Source: an uncultured Erysipelotrichaceae bacterium
Lineage (GTDB): Bacteria > Bacillota_I > Bacilli_A > Erysipelotrichales > Erysipelotrichaceae
DNA length: 64,000 nt
NCBI GenBank assembly: GCA_944326825.1
Contig: CALVFL010000028.1
Span: 1-64,000 of the forward strand
Direction: 5' to 3'
Of the stretch, positions 42,463 to 59,604 are shown piece after piece. The number at the start of each line of letters is the position of its first letter. Position 1 is the stretch's first letter. The notes below the pieces were generated by a model. That model was not told where the DNA came from and searched no databases. It worked only from the letters and a program-made list of their open reading frames with translations. Made by a program: the position numbers and the translations under genes.

Positions 42463-43952
42463 AATCTTGTTCCTCCTTTCGAAACAGGTTTATCACACAG
42501 GTCTTTCAACCAGCAATATATCAAGACCAGAGAATATGTATCCATTGCACAGTATTGGCGCAATTCATCACTTACTTTAAGAGTATCGACAGTTTCCAGA
42601 TCTTTATCAAGATCACGCCACTCATAAACAGCTCCCATGCCGTTATGGATCGCCATCTCATCATAACTCAGGGAAGAAACGACTTTCAATAACGACTTCA
42701 CCGAATAATTGCCGGCCATCTTTATATCATAGACCAGTCCGTTTACAAACGGGTAAGCCAGATCATAAGTCCTGGATATCACATCGGCAAGCTCTTCCTT
42801 ATATTGAGGAAACTGTTCACCAAGTTCTTTTAGTCTTAGGATCTCGGCTCCTTTAGCATTATAAGCCACTACTTTGGCATCCTTAGGTATATCCTTAAGC
42901 AAAGACCTGATGAATTCTTCCCGGCAATCTTTGACCCCTAAAAAATCATGATGGATCAGGCTGCCGTCCTTATTTAAGATGTGTACCGAATATTCAAAAC
43001 AGACCACATCATAAGGTTTAAGTCCGCTAAAAGGCGGTATCAGATAGCGTTCCCACTCAAAATCGATAAAGGCGATACGCTCCCCTTTCAGATCCTCTAG
43101 CCATCTTTTTAAAGGATAACGATCATAGAATAAACCTCCCAAACGATCAGCCATGATCTGAGCATATTGAACTTTAGTACCTTCAAGAAGAGATGTATCA
43201 ACATCTTTTAAAGTTTTAATGCCCTTTTGATACATCAGATACTTATAGCGGGAAGAAACTAAAGTGAGGATGGAATCATCTTCATATCTTTCATCTTTGA
43301 AGCATTCCCCATAATAACTGCATAGACCTCTTCCTTTGCAGGCATGACTTTTGATCGGTCTTATATCCTCAGCTTTAAGAGTATCCATCTTCAAAAGAGT
43401 TTCCTTTAGATCAAAGGATTCGGCTTTGATCATTTCGTAAGCCGATAGTTCACTTCTCTCTTTATCCTTTTTCAAAAGATGATCATCAACGATAAAGAGC
43501 TTTTGAACATCTAAATCAGCACCTCTTTCATATTCGCTGTTCAAATAGATGAAATAGACATCTTTGATCTTAAGACCAAGCTTTTCAATGACCCAAAGAT
43601 GAGCGCTGTAATAGTTAAGATCGATCGATTGAGGATATAATCCCAAAAAGAAGAAATAGATCGCAAAACCATCTTTGACCTTTCTTAAAAGCGGCAGTTT
43701 TATCCTTAAGTTCGCATATTCAAAGCGGGGTTTGATAAACCATTCATACTGTTCAAGATATTCGAATACTCTTGCTGGATCATCTCCTTTTTGTCCTTGG
43801 TAGTGATCTTTGATATCAAATCTTTTGATCAAAAGATCGCTTAAGGTTTCATCATTTCTTAAAAACGGCTGATAATCTTCTTTTCTATTTAAAGACAGAT
43901 AATATAATCTTTTGCACTTGTTAAACTTTTTAATATCAGAAACGTGATACAT
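42459..43952 (-). CDS. DUF2779 protein: Cas4-like Fe-S fold fused to a DEDDy exonuclease
   Basis: 497 residues. N-terminal KKFNKCKRLYYL plus the C-terminal Cys trio of HACKGRGLCSYYGEC (near residue 200) match the four-Cys Fe-S cage of Cas4/AddB-type nucleases, but the D...ExK catalytic motif expected between them is not recognisable. The C-terminal half has an RNase H/DEDDy layout: IAFIDFEWERY (D-x-E), VVAYNAKGAEIL, YDIKMAGNYSVKSLLKVV, and YCAMDTYSLV (YxxxD). No CRISPR array or cas gene is in the window. TATAAT lies 14 nt upstream of ATG, giving a very short leader. First gene of the unit with hpf. Confidence 0.82.
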   Translation of the reverse strand: MYHVSDIKKFNKCKRLYYLSLNRKEDYQPFLRNDETLSDLLIKRFDIKDHYQGQKGDDPARVFEYLEQYEWFIKPRFEYANLRIKLPLLRKVKDGFAIYFFFLGLYPQSIDLNYYSAHLWVIEKLGLKIKDVYFIYLNSEYERGADLDVQKLFIVDDHLLKKDKERSELSAYEMIKAESFDLKETLLKMDTLKAEDIRPIKSHACKGRGLCSYYGECFKDERYEDDSILTLVSSRYKYLMYQKGIKTLKDVDTSLLEGTKVQYAQIMADRLGGLFYDRYPLKRWLEDLKGERIAFIDFEWERYLIPPFSGLKPYDVVCFEYSVHILNKDGSLIHHDFLGVKDCREEFIRSLLKDIPKDAKVVAYNAKGAEILRLKELGEQFPQYKEELADVISRTYDLAYPFVNGLVYDIKMAGNYSVKSLLKVVSSLSYDEMAIHNGMGAVYEWRDLDKDLETVDTLKVSDELRQYCAMDTYSLVLIYCWLKDLCDKPVSKGGTRL

Positions 43953-44003
43953 AACTTCTTACTAATATTATACATGATAATGTCCGGTTTTCCCAAAAAT
44001 TCC

Positions 44004-44032
44004 AAAATAAAAGCACAGCTTTCAAGCTGTGC
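44004..44032 (-). terminator. Terminator of the helicase-to-aminopeptidase operon
   Basis: GCACAGCTT (44013-44021) / AAGCTGTGC (44024-44032), effectively an 8-bp stem with 4-nt loop, followed on the minus strand by TTTTATTTT (44012-44004). Confidence 0.85.
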
Positions 44033-44041
44033 CCTGGTATT

Positions 44042-45280
44042 TTAGATAATGAAGTTGCCTTTTTCAAAGATCTTAACTTTTTTATCATCGTAGGTTTCAC
44101 CAACGATCTCCATGTCGCTGCTTCCAAACATGAAATCGACATGGATCAAAGAATTATTGCCGCCTTTAGCGTATAATTCCTCTTCGCTGAGTTCACTGCC
44201 GCCTTTTAAGTTTGTTGGATAGCAGGCTCCTAAAGCTAAATGACAAGAGGCATTCTCGTCAAAGAGCGTATCATAGAAAAGGATATTGAGATCAGAGATC
44301 GGCGAATTATGCGAGATCAAAGCTACTTCACCAAGTGATCTGGCCCCTTCATCGGTATCTAACATATTCTTTAAAACATCTTCATTGGTTTTGGCACTGA
44401 AATCGACTACTTTACCATCTTTAAAGGTTAGACGGAAATCCTCGATCAGTTTGCCATCATAAGCCAAAGGCTTGCTGGAAACGACAGTACCGTCGATGTG
44501 ATAGCGATCAGGCATCGTAAAGACTTCTTCAGTCGGGATATTAGGATTGAACATACAATCATAACCACTGGCTCTATCAGCGCCGCCTTCCCAGACATGA
44601 TCTTTAATAAGACCGACAGTCAGATCGGTACCTAATGAATTCTTGAAATGCAATGATCTGAAATTGTACTCGTTCAGTTTGGCTGAATGGGCCTTGATCT
44701 CCTTATTGTGGTCATCCCAGGCTTTGATGACATCTTCATTCGCTTTGACTCTTGAAGTATATAAGATCGCTTCCCAAAGTTTTGCATAAGCTTCTTCATC
44801 ATTTAGATCAGGAAAGACTTTCTTAGCCCATTTCAGATTAGGATAGGCAATGATCGACCATTGGCCGACATTGGACATCGTGTAGTATTGAAATTCCTTG
44901 TTGGCTTTCATCCGCTCTTTTCTTACGGCACTGATCTTTTCGGAATCGATGCCGTTTAAAAGATCGGGATCATCCGAAGATATGTTCAACATGCAGGCCT
45001 TATGTTCAATGATGTAGCGCATCTTGTCTTTTGACCATTCCGGCACTTCTTTTAAGACATCAGTATCGACATATTCATAATTCATACGGGTGATATCGCC
45101 ATCCCGATAGTCGATCATTACTTTGCTGGCACCGGCTTTATAAGCCTCTTTAGTGCAAAGTCTGATCAGATCGTAAGCTTCAACCGGCCCTTGTATCAGA
45201 AGCATCTGTCCTTTTTGAACATTGACGCCGACTCTTATCGCCAGTTTAGCATATTCTTCTAACAGTTTTTCATCAATCAT
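44042..45280 (-). CDS. M29-family aminopeptidase (AmpS-like)
   Basis: 412 residues, thermophilic metalloaminopeptidase family M29. N-terminal LLEEYAKLAIRVGVNVQKGQMLLIQGPVEAYDLIR is typical. The metal site includes FMPDRYHIDGTVVSS-like NIPTEEVFTMPDRYHIDG, LGEVALISHNSPISDLNILFYDTLFDENASCHLALG (two ligands in EVA and ENASCHLA), and the closing HVDFMFGSSDMEIVGE. Cleaves N-terminal residues from peptides in the cytosol. TAGGAGGTAAT-AAAA-ATG. Last gene of a seven-gene operon starting at the helicase. Confidence 0.92.
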   Translation of the reverse strand: MIDEKLLEEYAKLAIRVGVNVQKGQMLLIQGPVEAYDLIRLCTKEAYKAGASKVMIDYRDGDITRMNYEYVDTDVLKEVPEWSKDKMRYIIEHKACMLNISSDDPDLLNGIDSEKISAVRKERMKANKEFQYYTMSNVGQWSIIAYPNLKWAKKVFPDLNDEEAYAKLWEAILYTSRVKANEDVIKAWDDHNKEIKAHSAKLNEYNFRSLHFKNSLGTDLTVGLIKDHVWEGGADRASGYDCMFNPNIPTEEVFTMPDRYHIDGTVVSSKPLAYDGKLIEDFRLTFKDGKVVDFSAKTNEDVLKNMLDTDEGARSLGEVALISHNSPISDLNILFYDTLFDENASCHLALGACYPTNLKGGSELSEEELYAKGGNNSLIHVDFMFGSSDMEIVGETYDDKKVKIFEKGNFII

Positions 45281-45292
45281 TTTTATTACCTC

Positions 45293-46189
45293 CTAACGAC
45301 GTGATTTTGTAAGTAAAGCTGCTCCGGTAATACCCGGTTCTTTGAGGATGGCCTTTTTGATCAGGACATCTTTCATGCCATCATGTACCAAAGATCTATA
45401 ATAATCAGCAAGTTTTCCAAAATAAAGATCATCAGCATTGGTGATCCCGCCTCCGATCACAAAAATATCCGGATCGACGACATGACCGATATAACTCATT
45501 GCCACAGCCAGATCATAAGCCATGTCATCAATGATCTTAAGAGCCTTGCTGTCACCGCTATAGGCCAGATCAATGACATCCTTGGCACTTTGGATCTTAT
45601 CGCCAAGTATCTCTTTGCCGATCCTGGCGATCGCCAGACCGCCGGCTTCCGTTTCAACAGCACCGGCATTCAAGTGATTATATTTTTGCCGGTCACGGTC
45701 GATGATCAGATTGCCGATCTCGCCGGCATATCCGTTTTTGCCGGACAATACCTTGCCATCGATCACTAGTGCTCCTCCAATACCAGTCGAGTGAGTGATA
45801 TAATAGACGATCGAATGACCTTTGCCAACACCGACTAAAGCTTCGGCCAGTCCGGCTGCATTGGCATCGTTGTCAAGATATACCGGCATCTTAAAGATAT
45901 CTGATAAAGTATCAGCAAAATTATAAAACGCAAAACCCGGCAGATTGCTTGACATCGTCATGACATTGCGCTTGGTATCGACCGGACCTGGCACTCCGAT
46001 CCCGATCCCCTGACATTCTTTATAATCTTTGATCGATTTAAGCATTTCAATGATGTTGGAAACGACGGCTTCTTTACCCTTTTCAGCTAAAGAAGGACGT
46101 TTGATGTCTTCGATTATCTCGCCGTTTTCCAAGACCTTGGCTACTCTTACATTGGTTCCGCCAAGATCGATCCCCAAATATTTTTCCAT
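45293..46189 (-). CDS. ROK-family sugar kinase (glucokinase-like) without the Cys zinc motif
   Basis: 298 residues from ATG 46189 (AAAGGAG in front). ATP site YLGIDLGGTNVRVAKV; GIGVPGPVD; sugar-binding DNDANAAGLAE; YITHSTGIGGALVI; and EIGNLIID. The ROK zinc motif CxCGxxGCxE reads as HLNAGAVETE here, so no Cys ligands remain; the Glu is kept. Such Cys-less ROK kinases occur in some Bacillota. Glucose or another hexose as substrate is inference. 5 nt after rimO. Confidence 0.88.
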   Translation of the reverse strand: MEKYLGIDLGGTNVRVAKVLENGEIIEDIKRPSLAEKGKEAVVSNIIEMLKSIKDYKECQGIGIGVPGPVDTKRNVMTMSSNLPGFAFYNFADTLSDIFKMPVYLDNDANAAGLAEALVGVGKGHSIVYYITHSTGIGGALVIDGKVLSGKNGYAGEIGNLIIDRDRQKYNHLNAGAVETEAGGLAIARIGKEILGDKIQSAKDVIDLAYSGDSKALKIIDDMAYDLAVAMSYIGHVVDPDIFVIGGGITNADDLYFGKLADYYRSLVHDGMKDVLIKKAILKEPGITGAALLTKSRR

Positions 46190-46193
46190 CCTT

Positions 46194-47489
46194 TTACTCC
46201 TTTGCAACTCCATAAAGATCATAATCTTCATAACCGGTTATCTCGACATTGACGAAATCACCGGGCTTTATCACCTTGTCGCTTTTAAAATAGACTACGC
46301 CATCGACATCATCCGGCGCCGAGTAGATACTGCGCCCTACATAACGGTCAAACAGTTCTTCATATCTTTCACAAAGCACTTCATAGACTTTAGAAACCTT
46401 CGCTTCAGCTTTTTTTGAAACGATTTTCTTTTGCACAGCCATCAATTCTTCATATCGTCTTAAAGCTGTTTTTTCATCTACTTCATGATCATATTCATAA
46501 GCCTTGGTATCTTCTTCTTTGGAATAAGTAAAAGCTCCTAAGGAATCAAAACGCAGCTCTTTGACAAGCTCGAGAGTATCTTTAAAAGTTTCTTCATCTT
46601 CAAAAGGAAAACCGACGATCAAAGTAGTACGCAGGACAGGTTCTTTAAAGAGCTCACGGATCTTGGCGATCTTCTCTTTGATCAAAGCCACGCTGCCTCG
46701 GCGATTCATCAGTTTTAAGATCTTGTCATTTCCATATTGGATAGGAATATCAAAATAAGGAATGACTCTTTTGGCCTTGGCCATGAATTCCAAAAGATCA
46801 TCTTCGATCTCATCAGGATACATATACAAGACTCTGATCCATTTAAACGGTATCTCATCAAGCCTTTTTAAAAGGTCTTTTAAAGCAAAGTGCCCGTAAA
46901 GATCATAGCCGTAATAGGTCGTATCCTGAGCGATGACATTGAGTTCTTTGACTCCTAGCTCATATAGGCGCATAGCCTCTTTATAAAGATCTTCGATCGC
47001 AAACGAGCGGCAGTTGCCTCTAATCAAAGGAATGGCACAATAGGCACAACGATTATCACAACCTTCAGCGATCTTTAGATAGCCGTAATAATTATTGGTG
47101 ATGAGTTTGCGGTTAGTCCGATAAGGTACAGTAAATTCTTCACCTAAAAGCTCTTTTAAAATATCATTAAGATCATCATAATCATCAATCTTGATAAAAG
47201 CATCCACCTCTGGCAGATCCTTTTTCAGATCTTCATAATATCTTTGAGCCAGACAGCCGGTCACGATCAGTTTTTTAAGACGGCCTTTTTTATATTCTGC
47301 CATCTCCAAGATAGTATCGATCGCTTCTTTTTTAGCGCTTAAAATAAAACCGCAGGTGTTGATGATGATTACATCGCATTCCTTGGGATCGCTTGAAAAC
47401 TCAAAACGTTTCTCATCAAACATCCCGATGATATATTCGCTGTCAACAAGATTCTTACAGCAACCTAAAGAGATAAATCCTACTTTCAT
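46194..47489 (-). CDS. rimO: Ribosomal protein S12 methylthiotransferase RimO
   Basis: Radical-SAM enzyme that methylthiolates Asp in uS12. 431 residues from ATG 47489, which overlaps the Gx gene stop (ATGA) and has AAGGGTG in front. N-terminal cluster-binding Cys residues (SLGCCKNLVDSE, INTCGF, VTGCLAQR); radical-SAM CDNRCAYCAIPLIRG; VIAQDTTYYGYDLYG; VGFPFEDEETF; C-terminal TRAM domain. The CCKNLVDSE spelling separates RimO from MiaB. Confidence 0.95.
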   Translation of the reverse strand: MKVGFISLGCCKNLVDSEYIIGMFDEKRFEFSSDPKECDVIIINTCGFILSAKKEAIDTILEMAEYKKGRLKKLIVTGCLAQRYYEDLKKDLPEVDAFIKIDDYDDLNDILKELLGEEFTVPYRTNRKLITNNYYGYLKIAEGCDNRCAYCAIPLIRGNCRSFAIEDLYKEAMRLYELGVKELNVIAQDTTYYGYDLYGHFALKDLLKRLDEIPFKWIRVLYMYPDEIEDDLLEFMAKAKRVIPYFDIPIQYGNDKILKLMNRRGSVALIKEKIAKIRELFKEPVLRTTLIVGFPFEDEETFKDTLELVKELRFDSLGAFTYSKEEDTKAYEYDHEVDEKTALRRYEELMAVQKKIVSKKAEAKVSKVYEVLCERYEELFDRYVGRSIYSAPDDVDGVVYFKSDKVIKPGDFVNVEITGYEDYDLYGVAKE

Positions 47490-47974
47490 ACTTTCACCCT
47501 TCTTAAACATTCCTTAGCGACAAAGCCGGTTAAAATACCGGTAGCGATTGATGAGATGGCCAAGATCGGAAAGATCGAAGCGATCATCGCTTGCGAATAA
47601 AGCATCATTACAACGACCACCTGACCCAGAGAATGGAAGATCGCCGACATGATCGACATAAAGATCAAAGATGTCTTTAAACGATGACAGACCATGATGA
47701 CGAGCGTTGAAAAAAGCACGCCCATAAAACTGATCCAGAACTGGCTGCCAAAGATCATTCCTCTTAGTAAAGAACCGATACTTACCCGCATAACATTGAC
47801 AAAGATCAGTTCTTTATAAGAAAAAAGATGGATGGTCACAAGCGAGATGATATTGGCCAAGCCAAAACGGATGCCGAACTGAATAGGCGGGATAAACATG
47901 CTTTCAAAAAGATTGATAACGATGGCCAAAGCACTGAGGATGGCCACATAACTGATTTTCTTAGTCTTATTCAT
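47486..47974 (-). CDS. Gx transporter family protein (heptaprenyl diphosphate synthase component I-like)
   Basis: 162 residues with five or six hydrophobic segments. N-terminal KISYVAILSALAIVINLFESMFIPP and the RFGLANIISLVTIHLF motif match the small Gx transporter family (formerly called HepS component I by similarity), an ECF S-component-like membrane protein. The substrate is unknown; a quinone/thiamine-type precursor is often guessed. Overlaps the NusG-II gene by 8 nt; these two genes travel together in many Bacillota. Confidence 0.8.
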   Translation of the reverse strand: MNKTKKISYVAILSALAIVINLFESMFIPPIQFGIRFGLANIISLVTIHLFSYKELIFVNVMRVSIGSLLRGMIFGSQFWISFMGVLFSTLVIMVCHRLKTSLIFMSIMSAIFHSLGQVVVVMMLYSQAMIASIFPILAISSIATGILTGFVAKECLRRVKV

Positions 47975-48314
47975 TTTCTTCCACCACGATTATTATACCA
48001 TTGGGGATACAGGTTATCGGCGAATAAATACCTAAACTTGGCATCCAGCCCATATTGACGCAAGTCTGGTTGGGACAATCGACATCAAAGGCATGGTAAT
48101 GGGAATCCTTGACTTCAATGTGAAACTTGCCGTATTTGACATCTAATTCATATACAGCATCTTCACTTATGTCAAAACGTAAAAGTTCTTCATCAGTATT
48201 AAGATCGACCACTTTAGCATAAGTGCTGTCTTTTTTTATAAAGTTATCATAGATGAGATACAATCCGCAGATTATCAAGATCAAAACTACGATCAGAATT
48301 TCTTTTTTCTTCAT
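47967..48314 (-). CDS. NusG domain II-containing membrane-anchored protein
   Basis: 115 residues: one N-terminal membrane helix (ILIVVLILIICGLYLIYDNF, residues 5-24), then the extracellular NusG-II domain with its paired Cys in DVDCPNQTCVNMGWM and SPITCIPNGIIIVV. The pattern CP..TC...GW....I.C.PN is diagnostic. Usually found with the Gx transporter; role unknown. GAGGC-TTAAA-ATG start. Confidence 0.82.
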   Translation of the reverse strand: MKKKEILIVVLILIICGLYLIYDNFIKKDSTYAKVVDLNTDEELLRFDISEDAVYELDVKYGKFHIEVKDSHYHAFDVDCPNQTCVNMGWMPSLGIYSPITCIPNGIIIVVEENE

Positions 48315-48315
48315 T

Positions 48316-49668
48316 TTAAGCCTCTATCAGTTCAGTCAGATCCTTAGCCCAGATACCCTTGAAATAGCGTTTTAAAGACAGTATCAATCTTACGACCTGT
48401 TCGATCTGACACAATAATAATACCAAAACAATACTTTGGATACCACAATAGACGGCTATAAAAGCACTGGGAATACCTAAAAGATAGGTTATGCCGGAAT
48501 CAAGGAAGTTAAGGATCTTGGCATCGCCACCGGCTCGAAGAGTTGAAAAGATGACATAGGTCAGCATTCTCAAGATCGCTTTAAAAGCTAAAACATACAA
48601 AAGCCCGGAAGCGATATTATAGACATAAGGGTCTTTGACACTGTAAAGAGCTAAGATCGGACCTTTGAAGATCACGATGAAGAAAGCGATGATAAAAGCG
48701 ATGATGAGTGAAAGACTGATCTGATAAACAGATTCTTCTTTGGCTCTTTCGATCTGATGGGAGCCAAGCCTCGTGCCGATGAGGATCGAAACAGCGCCGC
48801 CATAGCCCCATACGATAAAAAGAAACAAGTTATAGATCTGATTGGCTACATAGTAGGCATCCATATTCTTAGTGCCTAGAAGTCCAAAAGCCTTGATAAA
48901 CAGCGTTGAACCGAAACTGAAGAGCGTTTCATTGATGATCAAAGGCAGCATCTTGGCAATGATCGGCCGATAGAAACTGGGCCGCAAGTCAAAGATCAGC
49001 CTTAGGTCTTGTAAAAAGAAGGGTCTTTTCTTGATAGATAGAATAAGATAGGCGATCATGACGATGGTTTGCGAGATGATGGTGCCCAAAGCTGCGCCAG
49101 CAACTCCGATCTTAAAACCATAGATAAATAAAGCGTTAAAAAAGACATTGCCGATCGCTCCCAATAAAGAAAAATAAAAGGTTATCTTGGTTTCATGAAT
49201 GGAGCGGTAAGCCACCATCATGGAGTTGTTGATGGCAAAAGGGATACAGGAAAAGATCGTTATGCTTAAATAGTCTAGGGAATATTTCAATACTTGAGTA
49301 TCGTCAAGATAAAATAACAGCAAGTCATCGCCCATAAATAAGAACACACCGATCCAGACTAAGGCATTAAAAAGAGTAAAGATCAGGGATAAACCAAAGA
49401 CCCTTGTCATATTATCAGCTTGTCTGGCACCATAAAACTGGGCAGCAAAAATAGCGATGCCGCTGGTAATGCCAAAAGAGATGCCGTCATGCAAAGTTAT
49501 GATCTGCGAGGCATTGCCGACTGCTGTCACCATGCCGATCGAAGAGGCCATCAAAGAATCGATAGTTGACATGCAAGAGCTGAGCAGAGTGCTTAAGGCT
49601 AAGGGCAAGGCGATCCGAAATGTCGTTTCATAAAAGGCCCTGTCGCCAAAGAACCGGCTTAGTTTCAT
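48316..49668 (-). CDS. MATE-family exporter (second copy)
   Basis: 450 residues, 12 membrane segments, two homologous halves: FYETTFRIALPLALSTLLSSCMSTIDSLMASSIGMVTAVGNASQI and MLPLIINETLFSFGSTLFIKAFGLLGTKNMDAYYVANQIY. Different subfamily from the 35.9-kb copy. Substrate unknown. The start overlaps the helicase stop by 4 nt and the ribosome site is poor, so translation is likely coupled. Confidence 0.9.
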   Translation of the reverse strand: MKLSRFFGDRAFYETTFRIALPLALSTLLSSCMSTIDSLMASSIGMVTAVGNASQIITLHDGISFGITSGIAIFAAQFYGARQADNMTRVFGLSLIFTLFNALVWIGVFLFMGDDLLLFYLDDTQVLKYSLDYLSITIFSCIPFAINNSMMVAYRSIHETKITFYFSLLGAIGNVFFNALFIYGFKIGVAGAALGTIISQTIVMIAYLILSIKKRPFFLQDLRLIFDLRPSFYRPIIAKMLPLIINETLFSFGSTLFIKAFGLLGTKNMDAYYVANQIYNLFLFIVWGYGGAVSILIGTRLGSHQIERAKEESVYQISLSLIIAFIIAFFIVIFKGPILALYSVKDPYVYNIASGLLYVLAFKAILRMLTYVIFSTLRAGGDAKILNFLDSGITYLLGIPSAFIAVYCGIQSIVLVLLLCQIEQVVRLILSLKRYFKGIWAKDLTELIEA

Positions 49669-50996
49669 CCTTTATTGTTTGCTTTGTATCTGGCCTTCTT
49701 CTCTTCTTTGATCTTGGCTTTGATAAACTCACGGCGCTCTTTTTGTTTGATGCGGTTGATCAAAGCCGTCTTTTTCTTTTTATAATTCGGTTTTACTTTC
49801 TCTTTTTTACGATAGAGCTGACGAGCCAGCTCTTTTTCTCTGACTTCACTTTTAGAAAGCTTTCGCTCTCTCATCCTTACATCGACAAGACTTCCCTGCT
49901 TGATCGTTTTCGATTTAAAAGCAATACCTTGTTTGAGCAAAGTATCGATCGCTTTTTGATCGCTTTCTTTATAAAGCAGAAAACAAGTGCCGTGTTTGCC
50001 GCTTCGGCCAGTCCGGCCGCTGCGATGGGTATAGAAAGCCAGATCACTTGGCAAGCCCAAAGAAACGACATGAGTTATGGCATCGATGTCGATGCCTCTT
50101 GAAGCTACGTCACTGGCAACGATATATGTGTAGTCTTTCTCTTTTAAAAGTTTCATCGCTTTACTTCGCTCACGGGAAGAAAGACCGCCATGGATCTCTA
50201 AAGCTTTGTAGCCGTTACTTTTAAGAGTTTCATAGGTCTTATGACATTCTTCTCTTGTATTGGCAAAGATCAGACATACATAAGGGTTGATGCAGGGCAA
50301 AAGATCGAGTAAAGCTTCATCATACTCTTTATGTTTGCAGTTTATAAGCACATGATCGATATTAGGATTAAAAGTTGTTTCATTATCGATCTTAATGATA
50401 TCCGGTCCGTTTAAATAACGTTTGATGAACGGTTTTAGATTATCGGATAAGGTAGCACTAAAACACATCACCTCAAGGTTTTCGGGCATCTTGGCAAATA
50501 CCTTGTCGATATCTTCTAAAAACCCGTATTCTAAGGTCATGTCAGCTTCATCAATAACGTAAAGTTTAACACTATCTACTCTTAAACTGTTATCATCAAA
50601 CAATTCTTTTATCTTGCCAGGTGTCCCGATGATGATATGGGGTGCTCTTTTAAGCTTGTTTTTGGCCTTTAAAGAATCAATGCCGGAACTTAGTAAGAGG
50701 ACTCTTAGATCTTTTAGCACCTCTTTAGCCGTCTTTAGACGATCGGCTAACTGAATGGCTAATTCTTTAGTCGGCAAAGAGATCACGACTTGAGTGACAT
50801 CCTCTTTGGTATCGACTAACTCCATGATCGGTATCAGGAAAGCATGGGTCTTGCCGGTACCGGTCGGTGAAATAGCCACGATGTCTTTGCCTTTTTTAGC
50901 CATCTTCACACAGGCTTCCTGCACCTTGGTCAAGGTCGTAAAACCGTTTAATTCGATAAAGTTTTTAGTAGTGTCTTTAAAATTAAAATCAATCAC
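49665..50996 (-). CDS. DEAD-box RNA helicase
   Basis: 443 residues, GTG start. Motif I SPTGTGKT, PTKELAIQL, TPGKIKE, DEAD in VIDEADMTLEYGF, SAT, and motif VI HRSGRTGRSG. After residue 370 the tail is very basic (RKKEKVKPNYKKKKTALINRIKQKERREFIKAK), as in CshA/CshB-type helicases that act in RNA decay or ribosome assembly. TGCTAAAAT ends 6 nt before the GTG, with no ribosome site, so this is probably a leaderless GUG start. First gene of the operon, divergent from ispH. Confidence 0.93.
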   Translation of the reverse strand: MIDFNFKDTTKNFIELNGFTTLTKVQEACVKMAKKGKDIVAISPTGTGKTHAFLIPIMELVDTKEDVTQVVISLPTKELAIQLADRLKTAKEVLKDLRVLLLSSGIDSLKAKNKLKRAPHIIIGTPGKIKELFDDNSLRVDSVKLYVIDEADMTLEYGFLEDIDKVFAKMPENLEVMCFSATLSDNLKPFIKRYLNGPDIIKIDNETTFNPNIDHVLINCKHKEYDEALLDLLPCINPYVCLIFANTREECHKTYETLKSNGYKALEIHGGLSSRERSKAMKLLKEKDYTYIVASDVASRGIDIDAITHVVSLGLPSDLAFYTHRSGRTGRSGKHGTCFLLYKESDQKAIDTLLKQGIAFKSKTIKQGSLVDVRMRERKLSKSEVREKELARQLYRKKEKVKPNYKKKKTALINRIKQKERREFIKAKIKEEKKARYKANNKG

Positions 50997-51032
50997 GTAT
51001 CAATTTTAGCACGACAATGCTAAAATATCATT
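50997..51032. promoter_or_regulatory. Symmetric 36-bp divergent promoter, helicase operon / ispH
   Basis: ATTTTAGCA (51003-51011) and TGCTAAAAT (51018-51026) are perfect inverted repeats with a 6-bp spacer. Each arm is an extended -10 (TGCTAAAAT) pointing outward, and each ends exactly 6 nt before its start codon (ATG 51033, GTG 50996). No -35 of quality is visible for either. Both mRNAs should be leaderless. Confidence 0.75.
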
Positions 51033-51944
51033 ATGAATGTTAAAAAAGTTATTCCCAGCGGCTATTGTAAAGGGGTGATCCGAGCGATCGAGTTAGCCAA
51101 AAAGACCAGACTTGAAAATAAAGAAGCTAAGATCTATGTCTTAGGCATGATCGTTCATAACCGTTATGTGGCAGAAGCTTTAAAGCGCTATAGGATCGAA
51201 ACGCTTGACGATAAGGCCAAAAGCAAGGAAGAGCTGCTTGATAAGATCGATGATGGCATCGTCATCTTTACAGCTCACGGGATCGCTGACAGGATCAAAA
51301 AGAAAGCTGAAGACAAAGGCCTCAAATATGTCGATGCCTCATGTGATGATGTGATCGCCACCCAAAAACTGGTCAAGGAAAAGATCACCGAAGGATATAA
51401 AGTGCTCTATATCGGTAAAAAAAGTCATCCAGAAGCTCTAGCGATCCTTTCGATCAGCGAGGATATCCATTTGATCGCAAATCCTGATGATCTTTCATCT
51501 TTAAAACTTGATGATGACAAGATCTTTGTCACCAATCAAACGACGATGTCGCTTTTGGAAGTAAAGAGCTTTTTTGATAAGATCGCTCAGATATATCCTA
51601 AGGCCGTCTTTGCCAAAGAGATCTGCAATGCCACTACTATGCGCCAGAATGCTATCTTGAATCTTAAAGACTGTGATCTGCTTTATATCGTTGGTGATCC
51701 TTCATCCAATAATTCCATGAAACTTAAAGAACTTGGCGAAAAAGTCGGTATCCGAAAAGTCAGGATGATCGAAGATGCCAGCGAGATCACTGAAACTGAT
51801 CTTGGCGATGTCAAAAATGTCTATGTCACCTCTGGAGCCAGTACCCCTGCTTATCTGCAAGAGCAGGTCATTGCTGTATTAAAGGATTATGCCCAAACGA
51901 AAGTATTAAAAAAGCCTAAGGTCGATCTGGCTGAGATCCTTTAG
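51033..51944 (+). CDS. ispH: 4-hydroxy-3-methylbut-2-enyl diphosphate reductase
   Basis: Last step of the MEP isoprenoid pathway, a [4Fe-4S] enzyme. 303 residues with the three cluster Cys in SGYCKGVIRAIE, DASCDDVIATQ, and AKEICNATTMRQ; also VYVLGMIVHNR, FTAHGI, YVTSGASTPAYL. It implies MEP rather than mevalonate synthesis in this organism. No ribosome site; see the shared symmetric promoter. The 3' end overlaps the converging flippase gene by 4 nt inside a shared terminator. Confidence 0.95.
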   Translation: MNVKKVIPSGYCKGVIRAIELAKKTRLENKEAKIYVLGMIVHNRYVAEALKRYRIETLDDKAKSKEELLDKIDDGIVIFTAHGIADRIKKKAEDKGLKYVDASCDDVIATQKLVKEKITEGYKVLYIGKKSHPEALAILSISEDIHLIANPDDLSSLKLDDDKIFVTNQTTMSLLEVKSFFDKIAQIYPKAVFAKEICNATTMRQNAILNLKDCDLLYIVGDPSSNNSMKLKELGEKVGIRKVRMIEDASEITETDLGDVKNVYVTSGASTPAYLQEQVIAVLKDYAQTKVLKKPKVDLAEIL

Positions 51945-51950
51945 GCTTTT
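51908..51950. terminator. Bidirectional terminator within the ispH / flippase 3' overlap
   Basis: AAAAGCCTAAGG and CCTTTAGGCTTTT pair with one bulge; A-rich on the left, T-rich on the right. Both genes' stop codons lie inside the structure. Confidence 0.65.
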
Positions 51951-53569
51951 AGCTTATTTAAGACTGTATGGATATGATCTTTCAGATCTTTGCCGCTGAT
52001 CGCTTTAAGCAGACCGAAGAAATCGGCGATCAGGATATAAATGGCTATTGACATCAAACCATAGATACCCAAAACAACGATACATAAGATACGGCTTTCA
52101 AAATTGAACGGTACAAAGTTTATAAGCAATATCGGTAAACAAGAGATGATGGAAGCGATGATGATAAAGATCGCTCTTTTGAAAAATAAAGCATAATTGA
52201 CATTAAAATTGTTTCTGATAAGGACAAGAATGCTTATAACTACAAATGCTCCCACAAGGATATCCGATAAGATCATGCCGTTATAAGTCATGAAACGTAC
52301 AAAAGTAAAGAAAGCAATGACTTTGATGATGTTGCCAAGTGTAAGGATGATCAAGGTATTCTTGCGCATCCTGAGGGTTATCGACATCGAACACAATAAC
52401 TGATTAAGCGTATCCACAAAAACTGAGATCATATAGAATTTCAAGATCGTTGAGCCGATCTCTAAACTGGAATCACCATACATGATATAGTAAACCGGTC
52501 TGGCATAAACGATCAGCCAGGCGATCATCGGCACCAAGATGAAAAACAAGGTATTTAAGATAAGCAAGACCTGCTTGCTTAAGTTTTTGAGATCTCTTTT
52601 TTCAAGCGACTCGGTAAGATAAGGGACAAGCCCTGAACTGAAACCCAGTGCTAAAACCAAAGGGATCGATGATAATTTGGAAAGATTGACCTGAATGATG
52701 CCAAAAATCAGTTTGATATTCTCATAATTAGCGCCAACAGAAGTCGAATAGTCAATGAAAAAGGTTGAATTGACTATGACTGGAAAATAAGCGAATAAAG
52801 ATACCAAAAGATACGGCAGACCGATCGATAGCAATTCTAAAAAGACAGAACGGCTATCACGATTGGTATCAGTCTGTTCTAAGGCCAGTTTATGTACTTC
52901 ATCATTGGTCTTGCGAAGCGAGAGTGTCAGATAGATTATCGCAAACAAGGCACCGATACTGGCAGCCAAGATAGCAGTATAGATCGCATAGATGCCTTCA
53001 AGTTTTAAAATATTGACGACAAAAAAACCGCCTAAGATAATAAAACCGACTCTGACTAACTGCTCAAGGACTTGCGAGGCAGCATAGGCATTAAGCATCT
53101 TTAAACCCTGATAATAGCCTCTGATCGAACTAAGCAAAGGAACCAGTACAAGCGCTATTGCCAAAATATAAAACAGATTGACAAGAGTGGCAATATCGCT
53201 TTGTGTTGCCTGATCGCCTAAGATATAGGAAGCAAACGGGTTAGCAGCCAAAACGAAGATGACGGCCACGATAAAACCGCTCACGAGCAAAAAAGAACTT
53301 CCCAGTTTCTTTACCAAAAGCACAGTTTTATAATCGTTGCGGCTATAATACTTAGCCACTAAAGCAGCGATGGCAAAAGGAAGCCCAGCCCCTGATATCC
53401 TTAATAAAAGATCATAATAAGTATAGGTCAGACTGTAAAAGACCATATTGGCATCGCCGGCATAACTGTTTAATGGAACGACATATAAAAGTCCCAGCAG
53501 CTTCGATAAAAAGATGCCAAAAGAACTGGCTAAAGCACCGGTTATCAGCGATTGTTTAGCCTTGCTCAT
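51941..53569 (-). CDS. MVF-family lipid flippase (MurJ / SpoVB-like)
   Basis: About 542 residues from ATG 53569 (GAAGGAG 9 nt upstream). Some 14 hydrophobic segments; opening KQSLITGALASSFGIFLSKLLGLLYVVPLNSYAGDANMVFYSLTYTYYDLLLRIS-GAGLPFAIAALVAKYYSRNDY matches the Bacillota MurJ/SpoVB/YtgP lineage. It probably flips lipid II. This is a better fit than the drug-exporting MATE copies. MurC (57588-58892) and RodA (17037-18203) belong to the same peptidoglycan pathway. Confidence 0.82.
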   Translation of the reverse strand: MSKAKQSLITGALASSFGIFLSKLLGLLYVVPLNSYAGDANMVFYSLTYTYYDLLLRISGAGLPFAIAALVAKYYSRNDYKTVLLVKKLGSSFLLVSGFIVAVIFVLAANPFASYILGDQATQSDIATLVNLFYILAIALVLVPLLSSIRGYYQGLKMLNAYAASQVLEQLVRVGFIILGGFFVVNILKLEGIYAIYTAILAASIGALFAIIYLTLSLRKTNDEVHKLALEQTDTNRDSRSVFLELLSIGLPYLLVSLFAYFPVIVNSTFFIDYSTSVGANYENIKLIFGIIQVNLSKLSSIPLVLALGFSSGLVPYLTESLEKRDLKNLSKQVLLILNTLFFILVPMIAWLIVYARPVYYIMYGDSSLEIGSTILKFYMISVFVDTLNQLLCSMSITLRMRKNTLIILTLGNIIKVIAFFTFVRFMTYNGMILSDILVGAFVVISILVLIRNNFNVNYALFFKRAIFIIIASIISCLPILLINFVPFNFESRILCIVVLGIYGLMSIAIYILIADFFGLLKAISGKDLKDHIHTVLNKLKA

Positions 53570-54086
53570 CAACGGCAGCTCCTTCATCAGCTACAGTCGG
53601 AGTAATATCAAAAGCGAAATACTCCCGATAAGTATTTGTCAGCATCTCATCTTGCCATTGCACCAGCATCTTGACATGAGGTGTTTCATTGGTAGTGACG
53701 CCTGACAAGATCACTCCTTTAACATAGCCCTTTTCTTCATCAATCTGATTGGGGACCATCTTGTAGATCTGATCTTCAAAGATGCCGACACTTGAAGCCA
53801 TGACCGAATGGTAATCAACACCGTTTTCAATAGCCATCGCTTCGATATCGTATAAAGCTATCCTTGGATTATCGATGATGACATAATAACGATATCCCCC
53901 ATCTATAGCCGCAATATCGCAGGTAATATCATAATATTCCGAAGAAGTCATGAAATTCTGATTGGCAGCGATCAGATCGATCATGTCCTGATAACGTCCG
54001 TTGGGACTGACTTCATTGCGGGCAACATTGTCGCCGCATCCTGTCAAGATCAGCAAAAGTGAAAACAACACTACTATTCTTTTCAT
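53556..54086 (-). CDS. Unrecognised lipoprotein
   Basis: 176 residues from ATG 54086. Signal peptide with lipobox LTGC (KRIVVLFSLLLILTGCG). After a short linker comes a roughly 130-residue extracellular domain with aromatic-rich strands (YYDITCDIAAIDGGYRYYVIIDNP, YKMVPNQIDEEKGYVKGVIL). I do not recognise a family. It sits between tyrS and the flippase gene, overlapping the latter's start, so it may be co-translated with the flippase. Confidence 0.75.
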   Translation of the reverse strand: MKRIVVLFSLLLILTGCGDNVARNEVSPNGRYQDMIDLIAANQNFMTSSEYYDITCDIAAIDGGYRYYVIIDNPRIALYDIEAMAIENGVDYHSVMASSVGIFEDQIYKMVPNQIDEEKGYVKGVILSGVTTNETPHVKMLVQWQDEMLTNTYREYFAFDITPTVADEGAAVDEQG

Positions 54087-54091
54087 AACGA

Positions 54092-55324
54092 TCACACTTC
54101 TTCAAAGTAACAGACAAACCAGTGTTTCTTGCCTTTTTTAATGATGTATAGATCATCGGCAAAACCATCTTCTTTTTTAACCTGCAAAGTAAAATCCGTA
54201 ACTTTATTGCCGTTGGCATAGATACTGCCGCCTTTGATAAGATCTCTGGCCTCTCTTTTGGAATGACAGGCCTTAGCGCTTACCAAAGCATCACAAATAT
54301 CCATGCCCTCTTCTATCTTGGCTTTAGGAGCACTTTTTAGACCCTCTCTCAATTCTCTTAGAGAAAGATCTCTAATATCACCTTTAAATAAAGTATCAGT
54401 GATCCTCAAAGCATCTTCAAGACCTTTTTCGCCATGCACGAAAGTAACGACTTCCCTGGCTAAAGCTTTATGGGCATTTCTTAAATGCGGATTTTCAGCA
54501 TGATCTTTTGCCAAAGCTTCGATCTCTTCTTTAGAAAGGAAAGTAAAGATCTTCAAGTAATCGATGACCATTTCATCTTCGACGTTCAATAAATACTGAT
54601 ACATGGCATAAGGTGAAGTCTTATCGCCATCAAGCCAAATAGCGTTGCCTTCTGACTTGCCGAATTTATTGCCGCTTTTATCAGTGACTAAAGGCATCGT
54701 AAAAGCGTAAGCTTCTTTATTCAGTTTCTTGCGGATCAGATCGACACCGGCAGTTATATTGCCCCACTGGTCACTGCCTGCTACCTGCATCACACAGTTT
54801 TTGGAGGTGTAAAGATGATAAAAATCCATCGCCTGCAAAAGCATATAAGTAAACTCGGCAAAAGTGATGCCGGTATCAAGTCTTCTTTTGATGATGTCTT
54901 TATCAAGCATATAGTTGACATTGATGTATTTGCCATACTCACGCAAAAAATCGATCAAAGTCAGATCTTTGGTCCAGTCATAGTTATTGACGACTTCAAA
55001 GCCGAAAAGTTTTTCTACCTGCGCCTTCAAACATTCAATATTGTGTTCGACTTCCTCGATCGATTTCATCTCTCTTTCAGCAGTCGGCTTAGGATCGCCG
55101 ATCCTTCCAGTCGCTCCCCCGATCAGCAAGATAGGATGATGTCCGCCGTCTTTTAATCTTTTTGAGATCAAAAAACTGGATAGATGTCCTAAATGCAGAC
55201 TGTCGCCAGTCGGGTCAGTTCCTATATAAAAGGTCAGTCCCCCTTCGTTAATTTTATCTTCAATTTCCGGGCTTGTCATATCTTTGATCAAACCACGCCA
55301 TTTTAATTCATCAAAAAGTTTCAT
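54092..55324 (-). CDS. tyrS: Tyrosyl-tRNA synthetase
   Basis: 410 residues, class I. HIGH-like DSLHLGHLSSFL, GGATGRIGDP, the KMSKS-like KFGKSEGNA, and a C-terminal S4 RNA-binding domain (ACHSKREARDLIKGGSIYANGNKV). GGAGGTTTTAA-ATG, with TATAAT about 30 nt upstream. The 78-nt upstream gap is too short for a T-box leader, so this copy is not T-box regulated. Downstream of ccpA as in Bacillus. Confidence 0.97.
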   Translation of the reverse strand: MKLFDELKWRGLIKDMTSPEIEDKINEGGLTFYIGTDPTGDSLHLGHLSSFLISKRLKDGGHHPILLIGGATGRIGDPKPTAEREMKSIEEVEHNIECLKAQVEKLFGFEVVNNYDWTKDLTLIDFLREYGKYINVNYMLDKDIIKRRLDTGITFAEFTYMLLQAMDFYHLYTSKNCVMQVAGSDQWGNITAGVDLIRKKLNKEAYAFTMPLVTDKSGNKFGKSEGNAIWLDGDKTSPYAMYQYLLNVEDEMVIDYLKIFTFLSKEEIEALAKDHAENPHLRNAHKALAREVVTFVHGEKGLEDALRITDTLFKGDIRDLSLRELREGLKSAPKAKIEEGMDICDALVSAKACHSKREARDLIKGGSIYANGNKVTDFTLQVKKEDGFADDLYIIKKGKKHWFVCYFEEV

Positions 55325-55370
55325 TTAAAACCTCCAAATCACTATTATGATTATACACATCTCAAGCCTA

Positions 55371-55398
55371 AAAGAAAAGAGCGGAAGACCTTCCGCTC
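55371..55398 (-). terminator. Terminator of the ccpA operon
   Basis: GAGCGGAAG (55379-55387) / CTTCCGCTC (55390-55398), effectively 8 bp with a 4-nt loop, followed on the minus strand by TTTTCTTTT (55378-55370). Confidence 0.88.
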
Positions 55399-55402
55399 GT
55401 AA

Positions 55403-56398
55403 TCAATATACTTTTGTGGTTTCTCTTGAAGTAAAGAGATAACTCAAACATTTTTCTTTATCTTCCACTTCCTCATTTTGCAACATCTTCGTCATTAAGC
55501 GCATACTGACTGCACCTAAGTCATAAGACGGGATAGAGAACGAAGAGATAGTCGGTCTTATCATCGAGTTATATTTAGTATCGATGACACAGACGATCTC
55601 CATGTCTTCAGGAACTCTGATGCCGTTTTCTCTGGCAGCATTCAAGACGGCCATGGCTTGTGAATCACGATTGGCGATCACTAAGTTATGACGATGGTCT
55701 TTAAAATACTTAGAAAGGAATTTATAAGAAGAACGGTATTCTTTAGGGATCTCGATGAAGTTGTCGTAGGCCAGACCTTCTTTTTCAAAAGCTCTTTTAG
55801 CACCTTTAAGCATAAACTTAGTGGTATTGACATTCTTGCGGTCTTCTAATAAAGCAATATCTTTTACACCGTTGGCCAGATATTTAAGACACAGCTCATA
55901 GATAGCCTTTTCAAAATCCACATAGACCGAACAGACACTGTCGCCTGAGATCTTGTTGGAGATGACGACGATAGGAATGTTGTATTCATTCAGTAAACTG
56001 ATCGAATCATCGACGATCTTGTCCGAATAGATGATGACGCCGTCCACACGGGATTTGATGATGACATCCACGATCTTATCGACATCAGTGATCCCTTCGG
56101 TGATGGTATGCAGCATGATGTTGTAATTATAGATCCTCGCTACATCTAAAAGACCGTTGATCACTTGACCGGTATAGGTAAAACTGGCTTCCGGAATGAT
56201 CAGGCCGATCGTTGTCGTTTTGGAAAGGGCCAGACCTTGAGCGATGGCATTAGGCTTATAACCCAGTTTTTTGATCGCTTCTTCAACTCTGATCCTGGTC
56301 GGAGCCTTAACGACACTTGAACCGTTGATGACTCTTGAAACCGTCGCTAAAGAAACACCGGCCTCCTTAGCTACTTCATAGATCGTTACTCTTTTCAT
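55403..56398 (-). CDS. ccpA: LacI-family regulator, CcpA-like
   Basis: 331 residues. Helix-turn-helix VTIYEVAKEAGVSLATVSRVINGSSVVKAPTRIRVEEAIKKLGYKPNAIAQGLALSKTTTIGLIIPEAS aligns closely with CcpA, then a periplasmic-binding-like core (ALLED, NRDSQAMAVL). CcpA with HPr-Ser46-P represses or activates carbon genes at cre sites; a 12/14 cre-like sequence lies upstream of pfkA-pyk. The start overlaps the upstream helical gene by 23 nt. Gene order murC-ytxG-(ytxH)-ccpA-tyrS matches the Bacillus layout, supporting the call. Confidence 0.85.
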   Translation of the reverse strand: MKRVTIYEVAKEAGVSLATVSRVINGSSVVKAPTRIRVEEAIKKLGYKPNAIAQGLALSKTTTIGLIIPEASFTYTGQVINGLLDVARIYNYNIMLHTITEGITDVDKIVDVIIKSRVDGVIIYSDKIVDDSISLLNEYNIPIVVISNKISGDSVCSVYVDFEKAIYELCLKYLANGVKDIALLEDRKNVNTTKFMLKGAKRAFEKEGLAYDNFIEIPKEYRSSYKFLSKYFKDHRHNLVIANRDSQAMAVLNAARENGIRVPEDMEIVCVIDTKYNSMIRPTISSFSIPSYDLGAVSMRLMTKMLQNEEVEDKEKCLSYLFTSRETTKVY

Positions 56399-57116
56399 CG
56401 TTTTCTTCTTTCTTTGGATCGTCTTCTTCCGGTCTTAACCAGTTCTTTAAAGCTTCAACAGCTTTTTCAGCCAGCTCGATAGTGGCATCTTTGGCTCTTT
56501 CGGTCTTTTCTTTGACCTCCGGACGGTTCATATATTCATTGACGCTGTTTTTAACATTGTTTAAAACTTCGCCAGTCTTCGCAACAGCAGCATTCACTCC
56601 GTCTTTGACCGCTCCGCTTTTAATGCTTTCACCAAGATCCTGGACTTTGTCTTTTAAAAACTCAGCTGAATTTTTAACACCTTCCGATACTTTATCGACA
56701 GCTTCCTGGAATTCTTTGGAATCTTTGACTTCCGTAACTTTAGACTGGGCCTTCTCTTTTAAAGACATGATCGTTTCGCCAGCCGATGAAAGAGTTTCTT
56801 TGACCTTTTCACTGTTTTTTAATTCATCGATCTTCTTAAGAGTAGCTGATGACAGCTCTTTCGATTTAGTTTTGACAAATTCGACCGTAGCCTTCATCTG
56901 TTCAGAATCTTTGACATTTACAGCCATTGTCTTAAGTTTTTCAACAGTCGCACTTAAAACTTCAACCGTCTTGTCTTTAACTTCAGCGATCTTGGCTTTT
57001 AAAGCCTCATCTTTAACATCTTCACCAGCCGTAGTGATCTCATCGATCTTGTTTTTCATCTCTTCGACCGTAACTTCGATCGATTCTTCCAATTCTTTTC
57101 TTTCTTTCTCATCCAT
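56376..57116 (-). CDS. All-helical repetitive protein, YtxH position
   Basis: 246 residues, almost entirely Lys/Glu/Ala/Val helical heptads without Pro in the core and without a membrane helix; VKDSE/VKDKT/NSEKVKE-like units repeat about every 22-33 residues, like LEA or apolipoprotein-type amphipathic helices. It lies where B. subtilis has ytxH, next to the YtxG-like gene, but is longer and lacks the YtxH membrane start. GGAGAATAATT-ATT-ATG. Protein-binding or desiccation-type roles are guesses. The 217-residue frame on the opposite strand is a shadow. Confidence 0.75.
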   Translation of the reverse strand: MDEKERKELEESIEVTVEEMKNKIDEITTAGEDVKDEALKAKIAEVKDKTVEVLSATVEKLKTMAVNVKDSEQMKATVEFVKTKSKELSSATLKKIDELKNSEKVKETLSSAGETIMSLKEKAQSKVTEVKDSKEFQEAVDKVSEGVKNSAEFLKDKVQDLGESIKSGAVKDGVNAAVAKTGEVLNNVKNSVNEYMNRPEVKEKTERAKDATIELAEKAVEALKNWLRPEEDDPKKEENDEKSNDL

Positions 57117-57121
57117 AATAA

Positions 57122-57511
57122 TTATTCTCCTTTGATGATGTCATCGCCACTTGGAATAGGAATACTCTCCTTATTCTTCTTTTTAAAAGTATTAGAAAGT
57201 TTATCTTTGATCGCTTTAGAATTGCGGCTAAGATAATCTTTCGACTGCTTGAAAGCCGTTATGCCGGCTTCATGCACACGATCAACAGTTTGAGAGATCT
57301 TGACAGCTGAATCTAAAGGTGCCTGAATCTTTTTTAGACTCGTATCGACAAGGTCAATGGTCTTATGTGATCTTTTGACAGTTTCATCAAGAGTTTTAAA
57401 TAATTTGATCATTCGATAAAGCAAGACCATGATAAAGACCAGCACTACTAAAATAACTGTCGGCATCAATACATTGGCTAAATCATGAGCTGACTGTAAA
57501 AACGCATCCAT
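57122..57511 (-). CDS. ytxG: DUF948 membrane protein (YtxG-like)
   Basis: 129 residues with one N-terminal membrane helix (LMPTVILVVLVFIMVLLYRMIKLF, about 15-38), then a coiled-coil segment (TLDETVKRSHKTIDLVDTSLKKIQAPLDSAVKISQTVDRV) of DUF948 type. In Bacillus ytxG/ytxH/ytxJ are sigma-B-induced general stress genes; here only ytxG and a YtxH-position gene are present. Own promoter TTGAAA-16-TAAAAT with extended TGT, past the murC stop hairpin. Confidence 0.78.
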   Translation of the reverse strand: MDAFLQSAHDLANVLMPTVILVVLVFIMVLLYRMIKLFKTLDETVKRSHKTIDLVDTSLKKIQAPLDSAVKISQTVDRVHEAGITAFKQSKDYLSRNSKAIKDKLSNTFKKKNKESIPIPSGDDIIKGE

Positions 57512-57540
57512 ACGATACTCCCTTCACTATCTTTTAATCT

Positions 57541-57592
57541 ATTTTAACATTTATGAAAATATTTTCAATACTTATGATAACGCTTTATCATA
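57541..57592 (-). promoter_or_regulatory. ytxG promoter and hairpin at the murC stop codon
   Basis: Minus strand: hairpin TATGATAA-AGCG-TTATCATA (57592-57573), whose first arm contains the murC stop TGA, then TTGAAA (57568-57563), 16-bp spacer, extended -10 TGTTAAAAT (57549-57541). The hairpin has no U-tract. Confidence 0.6.
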
Positions 57593-58892
57593 GATATTCT
57601 TTAACTTCGTGAGCGATATTATATATATCTTTAGATGACATAAAGACTAAGACTTCACCTTTGTACTTGGAGAGTTCTTTAGCTCCTTCTTTATTTTCAG
57701 TTAAGATATGACTGCCTTTGATCCGCTCTTGCAGGTAACTGATGTCGATATCGACTCCATCCTGTTTATCATCAATACTGGTAAAATCCAAAAGATAGAC
57801 TTCATCAGCCAGACTTAAGGCCTTGGCGAAATCATCGACGAAATAATAGACACGGCTGGCCCGATGCGGTTTAAAGATGGCGATGATCTTTTTATCAGGA
57901 TAGCGTTTTTTAGCTGCTTCCAAAGTAACTTTTACTTCGGTCGGATGATGGGCATAATCATCGATGAAGACTGTATCATGATATTCTTCAACGACAAATC
58001 TTCTTTTAGGAGCTTTAAAATGACTTAAGGCCATTTCAATGTTGCGGGGATCAAAACAATGCAATACCGCTAATGAAATGACTCCCAGGGCATCGATCAG
58101 AAGATGGCGGCCGATAAAAGGCAGATTGAAATGAAAGATAAAATTATCTTTAAAGTATAGATCGAAGGTAGTCATATCGTCATCTTCTTCAACATTGACG
58201 GCGACAAAATCATCGCTGTTTTCATCAAAGCCGAAAGAAAAACTCGGTACAGCAATGTTCAGTTTACGGCATTCTTTATCTTCACCATAAAAAAGCACGG
58301 CTTCTTTAACATTATCGACAAATTCCTGATAAGCCGATAGATAATCCTCTTCATCCTTAAAATAATCGACATGGTCGATCTCGATATTGGTGATGATCGC
58401 ATAGTCCGGGTGATAGGCTAAAAAATGCCGGCGGTATTCACAAGATTCCACACACAAGAATTCACTGTCGCTTTCTAAATGTCCTTCTCCATCTCCGATG
58501 AGATAACCGGTATTTTTAAAAGCTGAAAATACCTGCGCCAGCATGGCCGTTGTCGTAGTCTTGCCATGCGATCCGCAGACACTGATCGAATGATAACGTT
58601 TCATCAGTTCGCCTAAAAATTCATGATAGCGATAGCATTTGCACGTCGGATTGTTTCTGGCGGCGACCACTTCTTCAAAATCTTCCAAAAAAGCATTACC
58701 GATGATGACGTTGTAGCCGTCTTTAATATTATCTTTATCAAAAGGCAGGATCTTGATCCCTCTTTTGACAAGTTCATCTTCGGTAAAAAAGTGTTTCTCA
58801 AGATCTGATCCGCTCACCTCTTCGCCGATGTCATATAGCATACTGGCCAAAGCAGCCATGCCTGTACCCTTGATACCGATAAAATAATACAC
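57588..58892 (-). CDS. murC: UDP-N-acetylmuramate--L-alanine ligase
   Basis: First amino acid addition to UDP-MurNAc. 434 residues, GTG start that shares a G with the upstream stop (TAGTG), with GGGAGAG in front. Rossmann start YFIGIKGTGMAALASMLYDIGEEVSGSD, ATP loop GSHGKTTTTAMLA, DYAHHPTEV, and the C-terminal IFKPHRASRVYYF. In Bacillus murC also heads the ytxG region. It follows the disordered SPI[FY]G protein. Confidence 0.95.
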   Translation of the reverse strand: MYYFIGIKGTGMAALASMLYDIGEEVSGSDLEKHFFTEDELVKRGIKILPFDKDNIKDGYNVIIGNAFLEDFEEVVAARNNPTCKCYRYHEFLGELMKRYHSISVCGSHGKTTTTAMLAQVFSAFKNTGYLIGDGEGHLESDSEFLCVESCEYRRHFLAYHPDYAIITNIEIDHVDYFKDEEDYLSAYQEFVDNVKEAVLFYGEDKECRKLNIAVPSFSFGFDENSDDFVAVNVEEDDDMTTFDLYFKDNFIFHFNLPFIGRHLLIDALGVISLAVLHCFDPRNIEMALSHFKAPKRRFVVEEYHDTVFIDDYAHHPTEVKVTLEAAKKRYPDKKIIAIFKPHRASRVYYFVDDFAKALSLADEVYLLDFTSIDDKQDGVDIDISYLQERIKGSHILTENKEGAKELSKYKGEVLVFMSSKDIYNIAHEVKEYL

Positions 58893-59590
58893 TACTTCTC
58901 TCCCTTTTCATCATCGAATAAACTGATGTCATCATTAGCGATATAAGTTTCATCATTCGGCTTTTCGAGGATATCTTCAAGCGAACGGTTGGCAAAATCA
59001 TTGCTGGTGACACTATGCAGGTTTCTGGCAAAGTAAGCTTTAAAGTATTCTTCATCATTTACTTCGCTTTTGACTTCTTTTTGACTGACGGTCTTTTCTT
59101 CTTTTAAAGTTTCAGCAGAAACTGCTTTATCTTTGGTTTCTTCACTTTTGATCTTGATGATGTCATCTTTTTTATCATTTATCTCAATAGCACCATAGAT
59201 AGGAGAAAGGACTGTTCCGATCTTGCTTTGAGAAGCGCTTTTAGAACCGGTGATCGAAGGAGCGATAAAAGAATGATTCTCATGATTGGTCTTAAGCACC
59301 CCAAAGATCGGGCTCATTGGCGGTTGTGATTCGTATTTGCCGTTATTATATTCATTTTTGACCTGATAAGTACGGGTCTTGACAGTATTGACATCGATGC
59401 CGAAAGAACTCTTTGGCTTGCTTAAAACATCGTTTTTAGCGATGTCATCCTCCTTAATGGCAACTTCCTTTTTTTGCGGCGTTTTATTGACAACTGCCGG
59501 CTTGATTGGTTGTGGTTCTATTTGAGGTCTGCTTTCTTTTTCTTCCTCTTCAGGTACTGATTCAAATATCAGATCTAAAAACTTCTTCAT
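58892..59590 (-). CDS. Disordered protein with two SPI[FY]G motifs
   Basis: 232 residues, rich in K/E/S/D/N, no signal peptide or membrane helix, largely disordered by composition. It starts MKKFLDLIFESVPEEEE, with two related boxes in the middle (PPMSPIFGVLK near residue 92 and TVLSPIYGAIE near residue 128) and acidic ends (DISLFDDEKGE). I recognise no family; paired SPI[FY]G peptides suggest short binding motifs for one partner. AAAGGAGAAAAG-ATG-type start. It directly precedes murC with a 1-nt overlap, so it is made together with a peptidoglycan enzyme. Confidence 0.7.
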   Translation of the reverse strand: MKKFLDLIFESVPEEEEKESRPQIEPQPIKPAVVNKTPQKKEVAIKEDDIAKNDVLSKPKSSFGIDVNTVKTRTYQVKNEYNNGKYESQPPMSPIFGVLKTNHENHSFIAPSITGSKSASQSKIGTVLSPIYGAIEINDKKDDIIKIKSEETKDKAVSAETLKEEKTVSQKEVKSEVNDEEYFKAYFARNLHSVTSNDFANRSLEDILEKPNDETYIANDDISLFDDEKGEK

Positions 59591-59604
59591 TTCACTTTTC
59601 TCCT

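Follow-up and report, generated by a model that had tools for sequence, protein, structure and literature searches.

Predicted leaderless extended -10 promoters, back to back between ispH and a DEAD-box helicase operon in an uncultured Erysipelotrichaceae bacterium

The ispH-helicase intergenic region

The window, as the whole stretch of 64,000 nucleotides analyzed here is called, carries ispH and a gene for a DEAD-box RNA helicase in divergent orientation. The IspH/LytB assignment is provided by TIGR00216 (230.8 bits for a cut-off of 187.85). The GTG codon of the helicase gene (50996, minus strand) and the ATG codon of ispH (51033, plus strand) are separated by an intergenic gap of 36 bp. The features of the locus are as follows.

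51033-51944, plus strand: ispH (LytB), 303 aa, predicted leaderless ATG start
50997-51032, no strand: intergenic region with both predicted core promoters, 36 bp
51018-51026, plus strand: ispH extended -10, TGC-TAAAAT, 6 nt before the ATG, PWM score 9.4
51003-51026, no strand: interrupted palindrome ATTTTAGCA-CGACAA-TGCTAAAAT, 9-bp arms, symmetric only here among the species compared
51003-51011, minus strand: helicase-operon extended -10, TGC-TAAAAT, 6 nt before the GTG, PWM score 10.3
49665-50996, minus strand: DEAD-box RNA helicase (CshA-like), 443 aa, DEAD/Helicase_C, predicted leaderless GTG start
48316-49668, minus strand: MATE-family transporter, helicase operon gene 2, 4-bp overlap
47967-48314, minus strand: NusG domain II protein, helicase operon
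47486-47974, minus strand: Hpre_diP_synt_I (PF07456) membrane protein, helicase operon
46194-47510, minus strand: rimO, helicase operon
45293-46231, minus strand: ROK-family sugar kinase, helicase operon
44042-45280, minus strand: seventh packed ORF, 412 aa, M29 aminopeptidase-like by eye

Seven tightly packed minus-strand ORFs, from 50996 down to 44042, fit the seven-gene helicase operon put forward in a preliminary description of this DNA, the operon itself being a prediction. PF07456 (47486-47974) is named for heptaprenyl diphosphate synthesis, and by name both directions thus touch isoprenoid metabolism. A search for RNA families returned no match in 42000-60000 of the window, which makes a riboswitch or a leader RNA unlikely; both arms of the palindrome fall outside both predicted transcripts.

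The intergenic region (50997-51032) reads GTATCA ATTTTAGCA CGACAA TGCTAAAAT ATCATT. The preliminary description had called the element a perfect palindrome, which holds for the two 9-bp arms (51003-51011 and 51018-51026), exact reverse complements of each other, and fails for the element as a whole: its 6-nt centre, CGACAA, is non-palindromic and the palindrome is therefore interrupted. The same description had read in each arm an outward-facing extended -10 exactly 6 nt from a start codon, and this is seen in the sequence. On the ispH side, TGC-TAAAAT is followed by ATCATT and then by the ATG at 51033, and on the minus strand TGC-TAAAAT is followed by TGATAC and then by the GTG at 50996. The helicase promoter also has, 17 bp upstream, ATGATA, a 4/6 match to TTGACA. 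None of the Shine-Dalgarno (SD) motifs GGAG, GAGG and AGGA lies upstream of the ispH or the helicase start, and the bases at -1/+1 are T/A for ispH and C/G for the helicase, that is, a pyrimidine followed by a purine at both.

A genome-wide class of predicted leaderless genes

In the genome carrying the site (G000, 1.364 of 1.384 Mb examined), TANAAT precedes the first ATG by exactly 6 nt in 65 genes, as compared with 2-18 cases (median about 8) at each of the other distances between 0 and 29 nt, the start being chosen mechanically as the first ATG of long ORFs. SD sequences are the commoner start signal overall. The 6-nt peak is also present in two congeners (G007 and G008) and in G010, from another genus of the same family, and is absent from the portions sampled of G014 (from the same family) and G037 (sister family). 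A PWM for the leaderless promoter, trained without the window's contig, gives scores of at least 8 for 47 of 254 divergent-first genes; moving the block by -3 to +8 bases leaves 0-4 such genes. The motif logo has TG at -15/-14 but lacks a clear -35. A consensus promoter scan found the helicase promoter alone, and no more than shuffles give; the ispH promoter escaped it for lack of a -35 match.

The base at -1, which played no part in choosing the genes, is a pyrimidine in 97% of the 113 motif genes, as compared with 52% of SD genes. As a pyrimidine at -1 with a purine at +1 is the usual signature of a transcription start site, the A of the ATG is very probably where transcription of the motif genes begins. 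An SD site was found in none of the 113. The motif precedes 40 of 263 divergent-first genes (15%) versus 6 of 555 tightly packed downstream genes (1%), which is the distribution that a promoter should show. The leaderless starts that had been proposed for both genes of the window are strongly supported, as predictions, by the 6-nt peak and by the pyrimidine at -1, and ispH and the helicase gene very probably both lack a leader. The helicase transcript may nevertheless carry 0-3 leader bases, since its start is a GTG and the corresponding spacing is 6, 7 or 9 nt in related genomes.

To follow the class across the lineage, TGNTANAAT-N5-Y-ATG was counted as pattern matches over whole genomes, and not at annotated starts. 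Nine genomes of the genus contain 246 matches versus 50 at three bases further away (about five times), 27 other genomes of the family 521 versus 174 (three times), and 24 genomes of the sister family 416 versus 268 (1.6 times). Judged by these matches, the predicted leaderless class peaks in the genus, remains clear family-wide and is weak in the sister family. In this small-genome, uncultured Erysipelotrichaceae genus, about 15% of divergent-first genes appear to be served by leaderless extended -10 promoters, and the motif would help to correct start-codon annotation in the lineage.

Leaderless genes with a TG-extended TAtAAT have been described among Firmicutes in Lactobacillales (Lactococcus-Streptococcus) and in Mycoplasma (Zheng 2011, PMC3160421). 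The site resembles the TA-led genes of that study, in which a TG-extended TANNNT box lies some 12 bp ahead of the start codon and the SD sequence is lacking: a TANNNT ends 6 nt before each start, it carries the TG extension, and no SD is found. In contrast with those genes, it belongs to an uncultured Erysipelotrichaceae lineage, which is absent from that paper's text. A literature search on leaderless genes and Erysipelotrichaceae returned no relevant paper; within the literature searched, leaderless promoters appear to be previously unreported in this lineage, which would thus be added to the known Firmicutes distribution.

Conservation of the arms and of their symmetry

The region was compared with that of ten relatives, nine of them close (eight of the same genus, plus L182) and the tenth being G010. 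The divergent order of ispH and the helicase gene is kept over much of the family. The check on arms and spacings that the preliminary description had suggested comes out in favour of both promoters. Upstream of ispH, TGN-TANNAT lies exactly 6 nt before the ATG in all ten relatives, while the helicase gene is preceded by TGN-TANAAT at 6 or 7 nt, or at 9 nt in G003. The TG one base before the -10 is found in both arms here and in 10/10 relatives. The perfect palindrome, by contrast, is found in none of the ten: the two arms of a pair agree at 6-8 of 9 positions, and their mismatches fall mostly at free positions of the promoter, namely hexamer position 3 and the N that follows TG. The arms lie 6 bp apart here; in the relatives this distance is 7, 832, 26, 35, 21, 15, 35, 21, 23 and 0 bp. 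What the alignments retain is the motif, its spacing and the two arms; symmetry and distance are not conserved. In L004, the locus of G006, about 0.8 kb (654-1500) lies between the helicase gene and ispH and appears, by eye, to contain a single membrane-protein-like ORF.

Nor does the symmetry stand out within the genome. Inverted repeats with arms of at least 9 bp and loops of 3-12 number 16 in the window versus 1-8 in simulated sequence, so that a 9-bp arm alone is unremarkable; what is significant is that each of the two arms lies 6 nt from a start codon. Some of these 16 short inverted repeats may be terminators. In G000, random pairs of extended -10 leaderless arms are identical at 9/9 positions in about 8% of cases; the commonest arm is TGATATAAT (7/38), and TGCTAAAAT shares second place with one other (5/38). 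Among the 132 divergent pairs of this genome, 23 genes of one side and 35 of the opposite side score as leaderless, and pairs that are leaderless on both sides are not enriched (5 seen versus about 6 expected, Fisher p 0.8). Since a genome has about five such double sites, it is no surprise that one of them is a perfect palindrome. Not being kept in related species, the mirror symmetry probably carries no special meaning.

Two probable independent promoters and competing interpretations

The site is best interpreted, with high confidence, as two independent extended -10 leaderless promoters that stand back to back by virtue of the short gap. Each arm would recruit the housekeeping (sigma-A-type) RNA polymerase on its own via its extended -10, transcription would start on the first base of each start codon, and the resulting leaderless mRNAs would be directly translated, making an SD site unneeded. 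The mirror symmetry would amount to two opposite matches to TGN-TANAAT-N6-start, both arms happening to read the same nine bases. With predicted starts 37 bp apart, the footprints of the two polymerases, if we assume their general size, should coincide almost entirely, and both sides are unlikely to form open complexes at the same time. It is plausible, and physically expected at this spacing, that the two directions compete. As the arm distance is not kept in relatives, such occlusion is more probably a by-product of the short gap than a conserved function.

In kind, the site is an ordinary example of a known promoter arrangement. In Mesoplasma florum, 5'-RACE has mapped divergent promoters that overlap back to back, as well as some starts on start codons, with 6-7 nt between the -10 and the start (PMC7745072). 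The two systems share TAWAAT with an extended element, a start 6-7 nt downstream, and overlapping promoters serving two divergent genes. They differ in that the promoters of the window are predicted, and in that both genes would be leaderless at one site.

Three other interpretations were weighed. According to the first, selection in the lineage has acted on the overlap itself, as a switch that makes expression of ispH and of the helicase operon mutually exclusive. The core promoters do overlap completely at the intergenic gaps of 36-37 bp found in G000 and G007, and other double sites with gaps of 34-36 bp exist. However, the gap drifts to 46-68 bp in most relatives and to 862 bp in one, so that exclusion is not kept, and the lack of enrichment of double-leaderless divergent pairs also argues against selection. 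We regard such a selected switch as improbable, and give equally little credence to the narrower proposal that in G000 and its nearest relative, G007, the fully overlapping promoters form a regulator-free, mutually exclusive switch by which ispH and the helicase operon alternate.

Slightly less probable still is an operator, in which the palindrome would serve a dimeric regulator in repressing or coupling the two genes, the promoters being built in. Its appeal lies in the perfect 9-bp arms, whose centres are 15 bp apart, about 1.4 helical turns. No further copy was found in G000, however, even at up to two mismatches, and symmetry and half-site spacing are not conserved in the orthologues (arm spacing 0-832 bp), where variation falls mostly at positions that a promoter leaves free. 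An operator, like a coupled element, also predicts that arms should be more alike within a genome than between genomes; the observed identities are 7.36/9 and 7.39/9, respectively (permutation p 0.65). These data speak against the natural operator suggested in the preliminary description, and equally against its view of the palindrome as one functional element. Its claim that the symmetry couples the two outputs is not supported either: in G006 each gene still has its own arm, with about 0.8 kb separating the two promoters.

The least likely interpretation, a single symmetric promoter whose shared, near-symmetric -10 fires both ways, has in its favor that opposite promoters lie inside one short stretch, as in the bidirectional promoters of Warman 2021. 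According to PMC10268837, that type has overlapping -10 elements and starts counted within 7-25 bp and usually 18 bp apart, whereas the two -10 hexamers of the window are separate, with 12 bp between them, and their predicted starts lie well outside that range.

Other divergent pairs of G000 that are predicted to be leaderless on both sides lie at C16:23228-23262, C34:11666-11701 and C32:46907-46955, with gaps of 35-49 bp, and display the same arrangement without perfect symmetry.
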